Virus record (IMG/VR): IMGVR_UViG_3300043539_002351
Location: 1-42,158 of that record
DNA length: 42,158 nt
Source: a virus
Direction: 5' to 3' (one strand)
The position numbers and the translations under genes are program-made. Positions 13,442 to 28,375 of the stretch are shown here, piece by piece. The first letter of the stretch is position 1. Every line of letters begins with the position of its first letter. The notes below the pieces were generated by a model. The model was given only the letters and a program-made list of their open reading frames with translations. It searched no databases and had not been told where the DNA came from.

Positions 13442-14035
13442 ATGGATTATAAAATTTTTGTTATTTCATTAAAAAGAAGACAGGATAGGAGGGAAAAAAT
13501 TTCGGAATTATTCGAAAAAAACAATCTAAAGTTTTCTTTTTATGACGCAATTGATGGACGTGATTTAATTGTTACGGATGAGATTGAAGAATTATTTTTA
13601 AATAATGAGTTTGAAGAGTGGGGTATAATAAAAGAATGTATCTATGGTAATACCTTAACTCATCTAAAGCTATTGAAAGAATGTTCTGAGCAGAATTTAC
13701 CGTATTTTATTTTTGAGGATGATGTTAAAATAAAGAAAGATATTAATTTTACGTTTGAGAGTATTGTTGAAAAAAAATTAGATGTTTTTTGGTTAATAGA
13801 TTTAGAACCTTCGTCGTTAGCATACGTTGTTTGGCCTGAGGGTGCTAAAAAAATACATGATTGGGTAATGAATGTTGGAAAGGCGGATAAAGGAATGGAT
13901 TGGAAATTATTAGAAATAAAAAACACTAATATCCTAAATTCTGATAAGATATGGGACGAATACTTTTATCAAGTACCTGGAGAAGATTCAGATATTGCCC
14001 CCAACGGTTATAATTTAATTCAAAATAAAATTTGA
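13442..14035 (+). CDS. glycosyltransferase family 25-like protein
   Basis: 197 residues. IFVISLKRRQDRREKI near the start, DAIDGRDL at 35-42, TLTHLKLLKEC at 71-81 and PYFIFEDDV at 87-95 are the family 25 (LPS biosynthesis) glycosyltransferase signatures; the EDD at 92-94 is the metal/nucleotide-sugar site. It is shorter than the usual 230-250 residues, with a reduced acceptor part. Base composition is more AT-rich than the neighbours. The stop lies immediately before the first promoter of the non-coding RNA block. It may modify virion or host-surface glycans. Confidence 0.82.
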   Translation: MDYKIFVISLKRRQDRREKISELFEKNNLKFSFYDAIDGRDLIVTDEIEELFLNNEFEEWGIIKECIYGNTLTHLKLLKECSEQNLPYFIFEDDVKIKKDINFTFESIVEKKLDVFWLIDLEPSSLAYVVWPEGAKKIHDWVMNVGKADKGMDWKLLEIKNTNILNSDKIWDEYFYQVPGEDSDIAPNGYNLIQNKI

Positions 14036-14061
14036 TTTTTTAAAAATATTTTTTATCTTTG
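14032..14061 (+). promoter_or_regulatory. sigma-A-type promoter P1
   Basis: TTGATT (14032-14037), 16 nt, TATCTTTG (14054-14061), the Bacteroidetes -33/-7 pattern (TTG, TAnnTTTG). It overlaps the stop of the glycosyltransferase gene and points into the hairpin RNA at 14066. Confidence 0.75.
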
Positions 14062-14065
14062 TAAA

Positions 14066-14125
14066 ACATTTGGGGAATAAGGATATATTTATATAACTCG
14101 ACCGAAAGGTCAACACCCCCAAAAC
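14066..14125 (+). ncRNA. small hairpin RNA A
   Basis: Starts about 5 nt after P1. TTTGGGG (14069-14075) can pair with CCCCAAA (14117-14123), enclosing a GACC-GAAA-GGTC hairpin (14100-14111). There is no open frame of note and no T-run after it, so the end is a guess and the RNA may run on toward the tRNA or be processed. Structure is read from complementarity only. Confidence 0.55.
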
Positions 14126-14142
14126 TCACAATAAAAAAAGAT

Positions 14143-14173
14143 TTGACAGAATGAGAATTCTTTCCTATCTTTG
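14143..14173 (+). promoter_or_regulatory. sigma-A-type promoter P2
   Basis: TTGACA (14143-14148), 17 nt, TATCTTTG (14166-14173). A near-ideal promoter in front of hairpin RNA B and the tRNA. Confidence 0.85.
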
Positions 14174-14177
14174 TGAA

Positions 14178-14232
14178 ACAAATCCCATGAGTGTGGAGTT
14201 TGAGAAAACTTCTTAATCTTGTGGGATTTTTT
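14178..14232 (+). ncRNA. small hairpin RNA B or attenuator before the tRNA
   Basis: AAATCCCA (14180-14187) pairs with TGGGATTT (14222-14229), enclosing GGAGTTT-GAGA-AAACTTC (14195-14212), a 7-bp stem with a GNRA loop. A run of six T at 14227-14232 follows the outer stem, so the unit could be a stand-alone small RNA with its own terminator, or an attenuator controlling read-through into the tRNA 28 nt downstream. Confidence 0.55.
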
Positions 14233-14260
14233 ATCAGACGTTCTTTAAAATAAAATATAC

Positions 14261-14332
14261 CGTGGGATAGAGCAGTGGTAGCTCGGAAGGCTCATAACCT
14301 TTAGGTCGGTGGTTCGAATCCATCTCCCGCAA
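14261..14332 (+). tRNA. initiator-like tRNA-fMet (CAU)
   Basis: 72-nt cloverleaf: acceptor CGTGGGA/TCCCGCA, D arm GAGC-AGTGGTA-GCTC, anticodon arm GAAGG-CTCATAA-CCTTT with anticodon CAT at 14293-14295, variable loop AGGTC, T arm GGTGG-TTCGAAT-CCATC. Three features mark an initiator rather than an elongator: a C1:A72 mismatch at the acceptor end, an A11:U24 pair in the D stem, and G30:C40 plus G31:C39 under the anticodon loop. The third G:C pair of the classical initiator (29:41) is A:U here. CCA is not encoded (CAA follows), so the host would add it. Transcribed from P2. Confidence 0.92.
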
Positions 14333-14374
14333 CAACGTGAATTAAATTTCACAAAAAAAAGTTTTACAAACTAT

Positions 14375-14405
14375 TTGATTAATTGAAAAGTTCTTCATAT
14401 CTTTG
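14375..14405 (+). promoter_or_regulatory. sigma-A-type promoter P3
   Basis: TTGATT (14375-14380), 17 nt, TATCTTTG (14398-14405), followed by TAAAACA as at P1. Drives structured RNA C. Confidence 0.8.
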
Positions 14406-14410
14406 TAAAA

Positions 14411-14590
14411 CAATTGAGAAAGGTTGACCATAGGTTCGTAAAATCGAGGTTCCCTACTCAATAAAAACTCTCAGGTAAAACTGATTGTTTCTTTGACAAA
14501 CAGACGAATTAGCCCGTCCTATTTAGAGTAGGGGGTCAACAAGATAGTTAGGTGATGCTATCAAGGAAGAATGAATTCGTTAAAATCATC
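14411..14590 (+). ncRNA. structured RNA C (about 180 nt)
   Basis: A long interrupted helix is visible: GTTGACC (14423-14429) with GGTCAAC (14534-14540), and CCCTACTC (14452-14459) with GAGTAGGG (14526-14533). The two right-hand strands are contiguous and the left-hand ones flank a 22-nt bulge. Inside are CTG...TTT/AAACAG (14481-14503) and GACG/CGTC (14503-14518). A separate hairpin GATAG/CTATC follows (14543-14562). No open frame is present and no known RNA family is recognised. The 3' end is not marked by a T-run. Confidence 0.65.
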
Positions 14591-14615
14591 AGTCAAAAAA
14601 AAGTTTCATAAAAAT

Positions 14616-14646
14616 TTGATAGTCTCAAAACTTTCATCTACCTTTG
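14616..14646 (+). promoter_or_regulatory. sigma-A-type promoter P4
   Basis: TTGATA (14616-14621), 17 nt, TACCTTTG (14639-14646), followed by TGAAACA as at P2. Drives the 1 kb RNA. Confidence 0.8.
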
Positions 14647-14651
14647 TGAAA

Positions 14652-15650
14652 CAAATGAAGGAGAGGGTTGAAATCCTACTTCGGTAAGGTCAACTACTCC
14701 TTCATTAATTTTGAATACGTTCTTTGAATATAAAGTATTTTCTTGAAATATGTTGATGATGAGACCCTCGGGTTGATTCTGAGATAGAGATAAAGAAATT
14801 GGGCGGTCTATAGTCCATAAAATAAACCATGAAAGTGGTATAAAGTGATTCACTCTCGATTAGGGTGGGTTGCGGTTTCCGAAAGGGAACTCGAGTAGAC
14901 AGGCAGGACATCATTGAGTCTTAAGTACCGAGGGTAACACTATAGGGAAAGTGATTTGATGACCGAGCGATGTGGGTCGTTTGGTTGAGGTGGGAACACC
15001 AACAAGAGTAACCTGTAGAACTGTTGTGAGAAGTATGGTCATCCAACTATACAATTGCGGAGTTCAATATTAAAGTTGACTTAAAACCGAAAGGTAAGAG
15101 TTCGTACAGGTGGTGCTGTTGTTCTCCTTACTTCTCATCTACCAAGGTAGAAGTTATGTAGTTGACTTGAAATATGGAGGTCGGGAGACTTCAAAGTGTA
15201 GTTCAGTATCGTCTCGTTCAAAAGATGGGATGGCTGGTTGACGGACCGCTACATTTATCATCCACTATCAACCCCTATTGTTAAAATATGGATTCTAACA
15301 AATCAATTAAGAAACAAAGGAAAAGTGTTCGTCAGTCGTGATAGACAGGTCACTACTTAGTCATGAGTTGTTCATGGCCGTAACGGGTCCCAAGCCCAAT
15401 ACGATTGTTTTAAAAGTTCTCTAGTCCCGCAAGGATTAATTGGGGTGGCAACCTCGAAGAGTGATGATTAGAAACAGAGTATATTACGACTCAAGGATTG
15501 GTTAATCTAATTGACCGTGACTGAGAGGTACTTCTCAAAAGGAAGTGGAAATCGGAGGAAATAAATAATCTCCTGTAAAGTCTCTCATTGAAAGGTGTAT
15601 TCTCAACCTGAATGCCACTAACCCTGACGTTTCTACGTCGGGGTTTTTTA
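14652..15650 (+). ncRNA. giant structured non-coding RNA D (about 1 kb), GOLLD/ROOL-like in character
   Basis: No plausible reading frame on either strand, visibly higher GC than the genes around it, its own promoter and a terminator. Strong local stems include AATGAAGGAG/CTCCTTCATT (14654-14663/14697-14706) enclosing a C-UUCG-G hairpin, CTCGA/TCGAG (14855-14859/14891-14895) enclosing GTTTCC-GAAA-GGGAAC, GGTG-GGAA-CACC (14989-15000), GAGAAGTA/TACTTCTC (15028-15035/15129-15136), ACC-GAAA-GGT (15086-15095), TCTAC-CAAG-GTAGA (15138-15151), GAGGTC-GGGA-GACTTC (15177-15192), TTGTTA/TAACAA (15278/15296), GGTTAA/TTGACC (15500/15511) and TGAGA/TCTCA (15522/15533). A possible long-range pair is TTGAGTC (14914-14920) with GACTCAA (15488-15494). 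Size, ornate structure, phage context and a neighbouring tRNA recall GOLLD and ROOL RNAs, which are known to be large, phage-borne and tRNA-linked. I cannot assign it to either by eye. Confidence 0.82.
15621..15650 (+). terminator. strong intrinsic terminator of the 1 kb RNA
   Basis: ACCCTGACGT (15621-15630) pairs with ACGTCGGGGT (15635-15644) around TTCT, followed by a T-run. Ten base pairs with one G:T. Confidence 0.92.
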
Positions 15651-15651
15651 T

Positions 15652-15682
15652 TTGGCCAAGTCCCGAAAAAGTCGTATCTTTG
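15652..15682 (+). promoter_or_regulatory. sigma-A-type promoter P5
   Basis: TTGGCC (15652-15657), 17 nt, TATCTTTG (15675-15682). It begins right after the RNA D terminator and serves the SPFH gene at 15702. Confidence 0.8.
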
Positions 15683-15701
15683 TATCCTAAAACGATATTA
15701 T

Positions 15702-16214
15702 ATGTTTGATAAATTAATTGATTTTCTATTAAATCTAAAAGACGAATTAATTCCTGTTCGAATTATCAATGAATGGGAAGGAGGAATCCAAATGAGAGGT
15801 GGTAAATTTTTAAGAAATGTTGAGCCAGGGATTAGATTTAAAGTCCCATTCATTGACCACATATGGGTTGCGTATACTGTGGCACAAACAGTAGACCTGT
15901 TACCTCAAACACTAACTACCAAAGATGGTAAGAGTATTGTTTTAAAAGGTATTATACGTTATAAGGTTATTGACTGTAAGAAATACCTAATGACTGTAAA
16001 CAGTGCGAAAGACGTGTTAGTAGATACTGTACAAGGAGTTATCCGAGAGATTATTGAGGACTATACTTGGGGTAGTGACATCGAGTTAAACGATTTGATT
16101 ACTGAGAAATCAGCATCTGTCGTTGATGTGTGGGGGATTAAAGTTGAATCTGTCACATTAACTGACTTCGGAATTATCAGAACCTATCGACTTATGTCTG
16201 ATTTAAAATTATAA
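15702..16214 (+). CDS. SPFH/band-7-like protein
   Basis: 170 residues from ATG 15702; an in-frame ATG at 15612 lies upstream of promoter P5 and inside the RNA terminator, so it is not used. GGIQMRGGKFLRNVEPGIRFKVPF near residue 30, a beta-rich middle (TTKDGKSIVLKGIIRYKV) and VQGVIREIIEDYTW then GIKVESVTLTDF match the SPFH (prohibitin/stomatin) fold. Typical members have an N-terminal membrane anchor and form membrane-associated rings; here only a short amphipathic N-terminus (FDKLIDFLLNLKD) is present, so membrane contact is uncertain. An early-type gene; role unknown. Confidence 0.75.
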   Translation: MFDKLIDFLLNLKDELIPVRIINEWEGGIQMRGGKFLRNVEPGIRFKVPFIDHIWVAYTVAQTVDLLPQTLTTKDGKSIVLKGIIRYKVIDCKKYLMTVNSAKDVLVDTVQGVIREIIEDYTWGSDIELNDLITEKSASVVDVWGIKVESVTLTDFGIIRTYRLMSDLKL

Positions 16215-24880: not shown

Positions 24881-26128
24881 ATGAAAACAAAAAAACCAAG
24901 TGCGATTGTCTACGGACTTGAAGTCAAAGGGGAATTAATATTAACTTCAGATGTTTATTTTGAAGAAAATTTACATGATGAAGTTGTTATCTATAGTTTA
25001 CCTTATAAAGATTCTGTTATTGAAGACTACACCAAATACACTCCTGACTTAATAATATCGATTGATGAGGTAATTAATATCCCTCACACTCAATTATCTC
25101 GTAAACATAAACACCTTGACGAAATGCCAGGGTACAATGTATTGGCAAACATCGTTGTTTGTCAAACAGTATTTAAGTCGTGCGAAGTCATTAGACCAAG
25201 ATTTTCAATATTCACACCAACGTATCAAACAGGTGAAAGGATTAAAAGAACTTATGAAGGGTTAAAGAACCAAGTATTAACTAATTGGGAATGGGTTGTT
25301 GTTGACGATTCTCCTGATGACGATACTTGGAACATACTTCAAGAAATCGCTTCTACAGATTATCGAGTAAAGTTAAATCGAATTTACCCACTTACAGGTG
25401 GTAATATTGGTTTAGCAAAACACAGAGCGGCGATGTTATGTGAGGGTGATTGGTTAGTGGAGTTAGACCACGACGACTATCTTACAAGTGAATGTCTCAG
25501 TACTTCAAACGATGCTATTCTAACATACCCTGACGCCAAATTTCTATATACAAATTGCTCCGAGATGTACGATGACGGAGAGATGAAGCACTATGACCAT
25601 AATTGGGATGGTGATTGGTATGCGAGACATGATAATTTCTTTGATTTTGGATATGCTGGACATACATGGGTTACCGTAGATGATAAAGAAGTGTTGGCTC
25701 ATCACTACCCTGATGTTAATCCATTAACTATCAGATACAACATATCAATGCCGAATCACGCAAGGATGTGGGAGAGAAAACTATACTATGAAATCGGTGG
25801 ACATAACAAAACTATGCCTGTTGCGGATGACTTAGAAATTATTATTAGGTCTTTTTTGAAAACACGGATGATTCATGTGAAAAAAGTGTTATACTTCCAA
25901 TATAACAACAGAAATAGTACTGTTGATAATAATGCAAACGATATAAACCGAAGAGCCCGATTAATTCGTGATTACTACGATACGGCAATTCATAATCGAA
26001 TACTTGAACTTGGTTTCCATGATTGGAATTGGAGTGACGAAGATGGTCACTCACAGAAATTCCAAAACAGATGTCCAATTAGAAAGTTTTACGAAGATGA
26101 ACAAGTAATGAATTACATTTATGAATAA
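24881..26128 (+). CDS. GT2 family glycosyltransferase with N-terminal extension
   Basis: 415 residues. An N-terminal part of about 105 residues is not recognised. RFSIFTPTYQTGERIKRTYEGL, WEWVVVDDSPDDDTW and GDWLVELDHDDYL (DHDD as the DxD motif) are the GT2 signatures; a later ADDLEIIIR resembles the catalytic-base (ED) region. The C-terminal part has NNRNSTVDNN. The enzyme should transfer a sugar from a nucleotide donor. It overlaps the next glycosyltransferase by 8 bp. Confidence 0.85.
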   Translation: MKTKKPSAIVYGLEVKGELILTSDVYFEENLHDEVVIYSLPYKDSVIEDYTKYTPDLIISIDEVINIPHTQLSRKHKHLDEMPGYNVLANIVVCQTVFKSCEVIRPRFSIFTPTYQTGERIKRTYEGLKNQVLTNWEWVVVDDSPDDDTWNILQEIASTDYRVKLNRIYPLTGGNIGLAKHRAAMLCEGDWLVELDHDDYLTSECLSTSNDAILTYPDAKFLYTNCSEMYDDGEMKHYDHNWDGDWYARHDNFFDFGYAGHTWVTVDDKEVLAHHYPDVNPLTIRYNISMPNHARMWERKLYYEIGGHNKTMPVADDLEIIIRSFLKTRMIHVKKVLYFQYNNRNSTVDNNANDINRRARLIRDYYDTAIHNRILELGFHDWNWSDEDGHSQKFQNRCPIRKFYEDEQVMNYIYE

Positions 26129-27272
26129 GAAAACAAAGATTTGTTTAAACGCAATGGTTGGTAACGAAGCTCCAACCATATTAAGAATGTTGGAGTCAGT
26201 TGCTCCACACATCGACTATTACGTCATTCAATGTAATGGAAAAGAAGATAATACCCAAGAAATTATCGATAACTTCTTTAAGGAGAAAAACATCCCTGGA
26301 TACACTTACCAAACAGATTGGAATTTCCCTGGGTTTAATAGAGACCATACACTTCAGGAATGTTTGAAGGCTGAACATGGATGTGATTGGATTCTTAGAA
26401 TGGATGCGGATGAAAGACTACAGGTTGATGAAAACTTTGATTGGTCTATTCTTGACGATACATCGGTTGACAGTTATAACATTACTGCCGAGGCGGGAGA
26501 TACAAGATATTTCAGAACTTGGTTTTGGAATACAAAATTACCATGGTTCTTCCAACACGATAAGAGACACGAAACAATTCACTTACCTGAGATTGGTGAA
26601 AACTTCCAAAGACTTGATATGCCATACGGGTTCAGACACTTAGTTGGACAGGATGGTGAAACTTGGAATGTACCGAGAAAATTCTTGAAAGATGCTCTTG
26701 AGTTAGAGATTGATAAAGTTGTTGGTAATACAGTATTGGAAGACCATTACCACTTATGGTACTTGGCTAAAAGTTATGCAGACTCTTACGGTAGTCCTCA
26801 CGAATTACCTTTTGGTAAAAAACATTCTGACGAATATGCTAGAAGGTCTATTTGGTATTTTGAAAGATTCTTTGAAGTTTCTCATAAATGGTATGGTGAA
26901 GGACAACCAACACGTGAAGACGAGATGGGGTATTACGCATTAATTATGATGGGACATGCCTATTATTTCATAGGTGACATCGCAAAATCTCACGAGTGTT
27001 TTAAAGATGCAGAACTGTTCTGTACAAGTAGAAACGAGCATTTAATGTACTTAGCATCTTATTTGGAAAAACAAGGAAGATATGAAGAAATATTACCACT
27101 CATTAGTGAGATGGTTAAAAAACCAAATCCATTCCCAAATAGAACATTCTTAATTGAGAATAGATGTTATTTAGACTCAAGTAATTTTTTAAATGAATAC
27201 CAAGAAATGATTGAGAGAAAACTTAACGAACCTACTATGGATTTAACGAGTGTAAATTTTGAGTTTGAATGA
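26121..27272 (+). CDS. GT2 family glycosyltransferase with C-terminal helical repeat region
   Basis: 383 residues. KICLNAMVGNEAPTILRMLESV and WILRMDADERL (DADE as the DxD) mark the SunS/TagD-like GT2 subgroup that starts with an (M)VxNE motif. Residues about 260-340 (YALIMMGHAYYFIGDIAKSHECF, then a second YLASYLEKQGRYEEIL) look like two or three TPR units, as in protein- or peptide-glycosylating members. Overlaps glf by 4 bp (ATGA). Confidence 0.82.
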   Translation: MNKKTKICLNAMVGNEAPTILRMLESVAPHIDYYVIQCNGKEDNTQEIIDNFFKEKNIPGYTYQTDWNFPGFNRDHTLQECLKAEHGCDWILRMDADERLQVDENFDWSILDDTSVDSYNITAEAGDTRYFRTWFWNTKLPWFFQHDKRHETIHLPEIGENFQRLDMPYGFRHLVGQDGETWNVPRKFLKDALELEIDKVVGNTVLEDHYHLWYLAKSYADSYGSPHELPFGKKHSDEYARRSIWYFERFFEVSHKWYGEGQPTREDEMGYYALIMMGHAYYFIGDIAKSHECFKDAELFCTSRNEHLMYLASYLEKQGRYEEILPLISEMVKKPNPFPNRTFLIENRCYLDSSNFLNEYQEMIERKLNEPTMDLTSVNFEFE

Positions 27273-28375
27273 TACTAATGAAGAAACCTAAGTATGATTA
27301 TTTAATAGTCGGAGCTGGGGTCTTCGGGTCTGTCTGTGCTCATGAACTTACTAAGAAAGGTAATAAGTGCTTGGTAATAGACAAACGAGATGTTATTGGT
27401 GGGAATTGTTATACTGAGAACGTAAATGGAATTCATGTCCACAAATACGGAGCTCACATATTCCACACCAATGACAAACATCTTTGGGATTATGTTAATC
27501 AGTTTGCTGAGTTTAGACAATACACACACAACGTGATTGCAAACTACAAAGGACAGATGTTTACTCTCCCATTTAATATGTGGACATTCAATCAACTATG
27601 GGGATGTACCACCGAAGATGAGGCCAAACATATTTTGGAGAGCCAAACATATTCGGGCGAAGTCACAAACCTTGAGGAACAAGCGAAGTCCATGGTTGGC
27701 GATGATGTTTATAATAAACTGATTAAAGGTTATACCGAGAAACAGTGGGGTAAACTATGTTCAGAGTTACCACCATCAATCATCAAAAGGTTACCTGTTC
27801 GATTTACGTGGGATAGTAACTACTTTAACGACAAATACACAGGAATGCCAATAGGTGGTTATACTCAAATATTCGAAAGAATGTTAGAAGGTTCCGAGGT
27901 TAGGTTAGGGGTCGATTATTTCAAAGAACGAGAGTATTTGGACTCATTGGCAGACAAAATTATATACACAGGGCCTATCGATAAATTCTTCGATTACAGG
28001 TTCGGTAAGTTAGACTATAGAAGTCTTACTTGGGATACAAAGATACTTGATTCTAATAACTTCCAAGGAGTTCCTGTGGTAAATTATACAGACGAAGATG
28101 TTCCTTATACAAGAATACTTGAACACAAATGGTTTGACCCTCACAATCAAAAAGGAACTGTAATTAGTTATGAATACCCTGCGGATTATAATGGTGAGAA
28201 TGAACCGTATTATCCTATTAGAGACGACAAAAACACCAAGACCTACGAGATGTACCACGAACTAACAAAGTCTCTTAAATCATACTATTTTGGGGGTAGA
28301 TTAGCAACCTATGTTTACTACGATATGCATCAGGTGATTGCTCAGGCACTAAAAATGTTGAAGGAAATAAATTAG
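27269..28375 (+). CDS. glf: UDP-galactopyranose mutase
   Basis: 368 residues, the normal length for the family. The FAD-binding GAGVFGSV (15-22), an E/D-bearing VIDKRDVIGGNCYTE, HKYGAHIFHTND, TLPFNMWTFNQLW, YTEKQWG and GGRLATYVYYDMHQ are hallmark sequences. The enzyme interconverts UDP-galactopyranose and UDP-galactofuranose using reduced FAD in the cytoplasm. With two GT2 genes directly upstream and overlapping, it should feed galactofuranose into a glycan. The start at 27269 (overlapping the upstream stop) or 27278 are both possible. Confidence 0.95.
   Translation: MILMKKPKYDYLIVGAGVFGSVCAHELTKKGNKCLVIDKRDVIGGNCYTENVNGIHVHKYGAHIFHTNDKHLWDYVNQFAEFRQYTHNVIANYKGQMFTLPFNMWTFNQLWGCTTEDEAKHILESQTYSGEVTNLEEQAKSMVGDDVYNKLIKGYTEKQWGKLCSELPPSIIKRLPVRFTWDSNYFNDKYTGMPIGGYTQIFERMLEGSEVRLGVDYFKEREYLDSLADKIIYTGPIDKFFDYRFGKLDYRSLTWDTKILDSNNFQGVPVVNYTDEDVPYTRILEHKWFDPHNQKGTVISYEYPADYNGENEPYYPIRDDKNTKTYEMYHELTKSLKSYYFGGRLATYVYYDMHQVIAQALKMLKEIN

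Follow-up and report, generated by a model that had tools for sequence, protein, structure and literature searches.

The question raised by this locus is what a kilobase without an evident gene encodes in the genome of a virus. The window, that is, the whole stretch of DNA analysed, is a linear virus record of 42,158 bases whose genes elsewhere include a collagen/S74 tail-fibre gene, a DNA methyltransferase gene and glycosyltransferase genes. An earlier note had described about 1 kb with no reading frame, a promoter and a terminator at its edges and many capped hairpins, and had suggested that this is a GOLLD or ROOL RNA of a Bacteroidetes phage, or else a giant RNA of a new class. The observation of about 1 kb with promoter, terminator and many hairpins stands. 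A frame scan found no plus-strand ORF of at least 50 aa in 14652-15611, and no conserved frame was seen in homologues. Because two short minus-strand frames overlap the RNA region (14638-14853, 71 aa; 14705-14914, 69 aa), the absence of a reading frame has to be read as the absence of a plausible gene.

The covariance-model search that the note had suggested, with GOLLD, ROOL, OLE and HEARO, matched GOLLD over its full length, whereas the other three Rfam models gave no match in the window even at E up to 5. The two domains of the RNA are as follows.

14798-15193, plus strand: GOLLD 5' domain, outside the Rfam model, conserved in 74 of 76 clusters among the matches listed, with covarying helices.
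15194-15609, plus strand: GOLLD 3' domain, Rfam RF02032, 327.1 bits, model positions 1-416 of 416, cut-off 150.

The gene-free kilobase encodes a complete two-domain GOLLD RNA of about 810 nt. The full-length 327-bit covariance-model match and the covariation in 59 sequences described below are clearly beyond chance, and it is practically certain that the RNA belongs to GOLLD. The folding energy of 14791-15612 was -240 kcal/mol, against -210 +/- 9 for shuffled sequences (z -3.35; 0 of 20 shuffles as low). The GOLLD branch of the earlier proposal was thus right, and its new giant class has to be rejected because of the full-length match. A new class, or a ROOL, could still be argued from the roughly 600 nt upstream of the Rfam match that have no Rfam model, but this part travels with GOLLD in 74 of the 76 clusters among the matches listed, and together with the full-length GOLLD match and the lack of a ROOL, OLE or HEARO match this leaves such a reading next to no probability. 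A second GOLLD-like match at 14380-14546 (14.5 bits, E 0.49) was taken as chance.

As a member of GOLLD, an already known family, the window RNA is ordinary. According to the available text of Kretsch et al. 2025 (PMC12286853), it shares with the GOLLD env-38 (RF02032) a 3' domain that covers the whole model, a separate 5' domain, a length above 800 nt, the L20-J13/15 and L21a pairings and a location in a phage; env-38 also lies downstream of a Met-tRNA, as the window GOLLD lies near a tRNA-Met. There ROOL, too, is described as a cage-forming giant RNA of phages that often lies close to tRNAs; no ROOL match was obtained in the window. A GOLLD of a Lactobacillus prophage accumulates in lytic growth and yet is dispensable, as far as the available text of PMC7567579 reports. 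Few structured RNAs of bacteria and phages are as large as GOLLD.

Homologues were collected by BLAST and by motif scans. BLAST matched part of the 5' half to two huge phages, LR745206 and LR756502, which are 635 and 642 kb long and both have GOLLD. A first motif scan of IMG/VR, whose pattern fixed GCAA in the L21a loop, gave 45 contigs; all 47 of these contigs and huge phages carry GOLLD above the cut-off, with scores of 275-335 bits. The loci of a second IMG/VR scan align, among the matches listed, and of these Rfam was run on L081 and L183 only. There were at least 183 loci, all motif-bearing, of which 30 were re-fetched copies and one was the window; among the matches listed, 156 loci with enough flank were grouped at 95% identity into 76 clusters. 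The window region 14000-15750 has 100% matches in four more contigs (L019, L027, L028 and L029). Two candidates were rejected: a Flavobacterium glycines contig (L186, from a GTDB scan), which matched the pattern but had no GOLLD, and Cellulophaga phage phi14:2 (L271), with no GOLLD above the cut-off. In the latter, 50 nt at 2501-2550, amid tiny hypothetical genes, match the divergent L081 GOLLD in its 5' part.

The Rfam GOLLD has no model for the 5' domain, which in this work was aligned and found to covary. Over the stretch aligned to 14791-15193, identity to the window was 61-100% in 74 of 76 clusters among the matches listed, the 100% end being the window's own cluster, and its gaps were mostly fewer than 10 (49 in L099, 25 in L002). 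The two divergent clusters were L081 (50% identity, 104 gaps) and L183 (43%, 61 gaps). The consensus fold of the 74 clusters had 18 helices in 14806-15192, and in every one of them two or more pairs showed compensatory changes. For the covariation test, a new alignment of 59 sequences below 90% identity was used, with L081, L183 and L086 left out. The 147-pair structure was paired in 95.9% of cells, and 114 pairs had changed on both sides versus 74.6 in shuffles; the covariation score was 0.494 versus 0.205 shuffled, and none of 500 shuffles reached 0.494. This covariation, which the earlier note had asked for, is strong. When the structure was slid by 1-3 columns, 38-41% of cells paired, a control in which the unslid structure is favoured since it was derived from largely the same sequences. 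RNAalifold on the same alignment gave 131 pairs, 105 of them changed on both sides and by eye mostly in the same helices. The minus-strand frames of 69 and 71 aa might be taken for an unannotated gene, or the region for a decayed, non-functional RNA; the both-side changes, far above shuffles, refute this, the window copy scores 327 bits within its relatives' 275-335, and identical copies exist in the four contigs named above, so that we give this reading hardly any credence. The 5' domain is 396 nt long here versus 420 nt in env-38, to which it was likened by length and by a GAAA loop (available text of PMC12286853); assigned by order, the GAAA loop at 15089-15092 would sit where L11a of env-38 is expected. 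The 5'-domain alignment extends the GOLLD model beyond its 3' half.

In the published structure, as given in the available text of PMC12286853, fourteen copies of GOLLD form a hollow RNA cage with the 5' domains as caps and the 3' domains as rings; the L20-J13/15 kissing contact is a bridge between chains, and the L21a loop is bridge B8. In our alignment the columns 15320 and 15390 covary outside the nested fold (GC in 64 and CG in 10 of 74 clusters among the matches listed), and this pair probably corresponds to the L20-J13/15 contact, the loop name being assigned by order. In the loop that order would likewise make L21a, the window has the palindromic dinucleotide GC and the loci L002 and L003 have CG; the constancy of this loop is partly selection, because the first-scan pattern fixed GCAA in 45 contigs. 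The pairings that join subunits of the published 14-mer cage are retained and covary. By homology, fourteen copies of the window GOLLD very probably assemble into a hollow cage.

A further contact concerns the two domains themselves.

14972-14975, plus strand: GTGG hairpin loop of the 5' domain, covarying with 15262-15265.
15262-15265, plus strand: CCAC at the linker start, partner of the loop 14972-14975 by covariation.
15257-15316, plus strand: variable A/T-rich linker, of which 15257-15310 is 34-79% identical in the other clusters among the matches listed.

All four pairs of this contact have changed on both sides, and 99.6% of cells pair; loop and partner change together as GTGG/CCAC, ACCG/CGGT, CCGA/TCGG, ACGG/CCGT and GTAG/CTAC. 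The covariation indicates that the contact ties the 5' and 3' domains through the 5' loop and the linker start. Isolated covarying column pairs of similar rank probably reflect shared ancestry, and the cross-domain contact stands out from them because three adjacent pairs are involved. We found no mention of it in the available text of PMC12286853. It is a testable structural prediction. The linker has no internal tRNA, and the window holds one tRNA.

The signals at the two ends of the kilobase are the following.

14616-14646, plus strand: GOLLD promoter of Bacteroidota type, TTGATA at 14616-14621, N17 and TACCTTTG at 14639-14646.
14655-14705, plus strand: leader hairpin read from the sequence, stem ATGAAGGAG/CTCCTTCAT, with a UUCG-capped inner hairpin.
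15620-15649, plus strand: intrinsic terminator, an 11-bp hairpin at 15620-15645 and a T-run.

The TTGATA-N17 promoter is present at the left edge as had been described, and transcription would start near 14653. The pattern searched for, TTG, 16-22 nt and TAnnTTTG, which we take to be the Bacteroidota type, was present in 67 of 71 loci among the matches listed, no more than 600 nt ahead of GOLLD; shuffles gave an expectation of 5.2. The terminator hairpin and T-run lie at the right edge where they had been placed; the terminator scan alone is within chance (one found, shuffle mean 1.5). The capped hairpins were also read in the sequence, with GAAA loops at 14831-14834, 14881-14884 and 15089-15092, GGAA at 14993-14996, GCAA at 15429-15432 and UUCG at 14680-14683. 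The leader hairpin is outside the conserved fold, and in other loci it is absent or different.

Between the leader hairpin and the fold lies a short conserved site.

14719-14727, plus strand: GTTCTTTGA, putative boxA (antitermination site) in the leader of GOLLD, a conserved 9-mer also found before 16S rRNA.

The loci diverge upstream of the fold, and the 9-mer GTTCTTT[G/A]A recurs. It was found within 200 nt upstream of the fold in 65 of 73 loci among the matches listed, with 0.008 expected per window; the 73 loci are those with at least 250 nt of flank, and the background is 54 copies in 1.34 Mb of the same loci, strand-summed. The 9-mer was missing in the other eight (L003, L040, L081, L086, L099, L112, L164 and L183). 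Its distance to the approximate fold start varies, in most loci between about 6 and 113 nt, so that the 9-mer does not form a fixed element of the fold; a -7 box precedes it by 26-28 nt in 30 of 64 cases. Since the looser form GYTCTTTRA occurs ten times in the window, on both strands, one copy proves nothing, and it is the conservation that carries the argument. The loci contain 86 more copies of the 9-mer: 18 in other parts of the island, 14 no more than 120 nt upstream of a tRNA, and 54 at other places. Hairpins before the site are common, for example TCGGA/TCCGA, TCAGGA/TCCTGA and CTTGGT/ACCAAG. A boxB-like hairpin before it reached p <=0.05 in a shuffle test in 19 of 65 loci (mean score 6.1 versus 3.6 shuffled); in the window itself, the last 32 nt gave no significant result. 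A shared 18-mer that extends the 9-mer was found in 0 of 296 Bacteroidota genomes and was dropped.

The GOLLD leader 9-mer looks like boxA, the antitermination signal of rRNA. The gammaproteobacterial boxA consensus is GYTCTTTAANA, in a study that, by its available text, set non-coding RNAs aside (PMC5725501). We counted the 9-mer before 16S rRNA in leaders of 350 nt, with duplicates dropped; 16S was found in 16 of 41 genomes of a phylum-wide Bacteroidota sample and in 19 of 41 of a Flavobacteriaceae sample. GTTCTTT[G/A]A was present in 9 of 12 distinct leaders phylum-wide and in 1 of 18 Flavobacteriaceae leaders, 14 of which have GTTCATWRA; the common form GTTCWTWRR was present in 12 of 12 and 16 of 18, respectively. 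From these counts the phage 9-mer would fit Bacteroidota hosts outside most Flavobacteriaceae. The order of promoter and then 9-mer seen in GOLLD leaders also precedes 16S rRNA. The Bacteroidota-type promoters and the rRNA-leader 9-mer of that phylum agree with the earlier assignment to a Bacteroidetes phage.

Leaders of other GOLLD phages were read as well. In all four roseophages read, which are two close pairs (DSS3_MAL1/MD18 and V10/DSS3P8; L270, L272, L273 and L277), GCTCTTTGACAA heads a tRNA-GOLLD-tmRNA unit. The site GCTCTTTGACAATTTGGCTGTCC, presumably the alphaproteobacterial rRNA form of boxA, stands before the tRNAs, GOLLD and tmRNA, at 1.5 to 2.4 kb from the GOLLD 3' domain, and GYTCTTTRA occurs 3 to 5 times per roseophage genome. 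The roseophage GOLLDs scored 151-170 bits, with V10 and DSS3P8 barely above the cut-off of 150. The GOLLDs of DSS3_MAL1 and MD18 contain a tRNA-Arg. In Stenotrophomonas phage CM1, GTTCTTTAA stands some 800 nt ahead of the GOLLD 3' domain; it was counted as weak because the 320 kb of this phage hold 22 such sites. TTCTTT[GA]A was absent in the 1.2 kb before the 3' domain of three streptococcal GOLLDs; in a 3-kb search of streptococcal loci, L185 has GTTCTTTGA at -1502. No boxA-like site was found in the GOLLD leader of Sinorhizobium phage Phosso. With the streptococcal GOLLDs, Phosso and 8 of the 73 loci lacking the site, boxA as a GOLLD-wide rule was rejected.

One of the closest known arrangements is the rRNA operon leader with boxA, which resembles the GOLLD leader, to judge from the available texts of PMC10250234 and PMC5725501, in its promoter, in a hairpin in many loci followed by GTTCTTTGA, and in the long untranslated structured RNA that comes next with tRNAs beside it. 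The GOLLD 9-mer is the Bacteroidota 16S form; unlike the rRNA leader, the GOLLD leader stands in a phage. A second likeness is the boxA of CRISPR arrays (Stringer et al. 2020, as cited in PMC7862264), which also precedes a long untranslated non-rRNA transcript but a CRISPR precursor rather than a structured giant RNA. According to the available text of PMC7862264, a boxA before an artificial CRISPR array raised the precursor about 10-fold, so that an effect of boxA on GOLLD would have a precedent. The boxA-like leader outside the GOLLD fold is new in this work. The available text of Kretsch et al. 2025 (PMC12286853) gave no mention of the promoter, the boxA-like leader or the companion RNA described below, and no paper that treats boxA and GOLLD together was found in a search without most subscription papers, the GOLLD discovery and CRISPR boxA papers included.

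It is possible that the RNA is GOLLD and that GTTCTTTGA is not a boxA, being instead the site of another factor (a phage regulator, an RNase or a pairing partner) or a part of the mature RNA that is under constraint. In favour of this reading it can be said that boxA has been assigned from sequence only, that streptococcal GOLLDs manage without the 9-mer, and that the 16S match holds phylum-wide, yet in 1 of 18 Flavobacteriaceae leaders. It is countered by the varying distance to the fold, by the same 9-mer and promoter order before 16S rRNA, by the roseophage GOLLD unit, headed by a variant of the published boxA consensus, and by the 14 of 86 further copies close before a tRNA. We consider it a serious but rather doubtful alternative, and we lean, with some reserve, to GTTCTTTGA acting as a boxA.

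With GTTCTTTGA taken as boxA, GOLLD would be transcribed in infected cells by host RNA polymerase, starting from the promoter (14616-14646) and ending at the terminator (15645). In the leader, the boxA-like site would recruit NusB-S10 of the host, as happens on ribosomal RNA; in this way GOLLD could be finished without Rho-dependent termination, and the untranslated RNA of about 1 kb would fold while being made. This overall explanation, a complete GOLLD that forms a cage and is transcribed by the host with boxA antitermination, seems likely to us. By a slight inclination we also favour the wider idea that large phages make GOLLD as bacteria make rRNA, with boxA leaders matched to the host (GTTCTTTGA in Bacteroidota phages, GCTCTTTGACAA in roseophages) that may recruit NusB-S10; the giant RNA would then be transcribed to its end and fold under the same chaperoning complex, beside the phage tRNAs and, in roseophages, tmRNA. 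If true, an rRNA-type leader would explain how a phage synthesizes an untranslated RNA of about 1 kb and would link GOLLD to the ribosome-making machinery of the host, and GOLLD loci, as phage mimics of rRNA operons, would favour a role in taking over translation.

The neighbours of GOLLD in the island are a tRNA and a small RNA.

14240-14248, plus strand: GTTCTTTAA, a boxA-like site before the tRNA, from sequence.
14261-14333, plus strand: tRNA-Met (CAT) from the tRNA search, with an initiator-like C1.A72.
14398-14598, plus strand: companion small RNA unit, with a -7 box at 14398-14405, a boxA-like variant at 14487-14496 and a core at 14513-14536.

The C1.A72 mismatch marks initiator tRNAs. 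A tRNA lay within 600 nt of GOLLD in 27 of 76 clusters among the matches listed, and in 25 of these it was tRNA-Met. Among the same matches, tRNA-Met made up 26 of the 33 tRNAs within 600 nt versus 8 of 86 farther off, counts that are not independent because the loci share ancestry. By the ends that ARAGORN gave, 12 of the 26 near tRNA-Met had C1.A72 and 8 more had no standard 1-72 pair, versus 2 of the 8 far ones. In eight loci a tRNA starts about 9-22 nt past the GOLLD 3' end. The tRNA-Met neighbours and published ribosome pull-downs point to a translation-related role.

The companion RNA, which is also present in L189-L216, lies between the tRNA and GOLLD. Its core CCYGTCCYATTANGAGTRGGRGGT was found in 38 IMG/VR contigs; the GOLLD 5' domain followed 166-300 nt downstream of it in 36, and the other two contigs end within 282 and 153 nt. 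The window's core is slightly different from CCYGTCCYATTANGAGTRGGRGGT and was found by a looser pattern. Of 13 distinct copies, most have their own promoter, hairpin and boxA-like site, and the RNA had no Rfam match at the cut-off. The companion RNA, the host-matched boxA-like leader and the cross-domain contact are worth follow-up.

Before the tRNA, 14040-14235 holds two more stretches with hairpins, each led by a promoter (-7 boxes: 14054 and 14166); near relatives conserve them in part. An SPFH/Band-7 gene (stomatin/HflK-like) comes straight after the GOLLD terminator, at 15702-16214. Farther along the window, the relatives of 27269-28375 in other phages are annotated as UDP-galactopyranose mutase, and a glycosyltransferase gene at 24881-26128 lies near this mutase-like gene.
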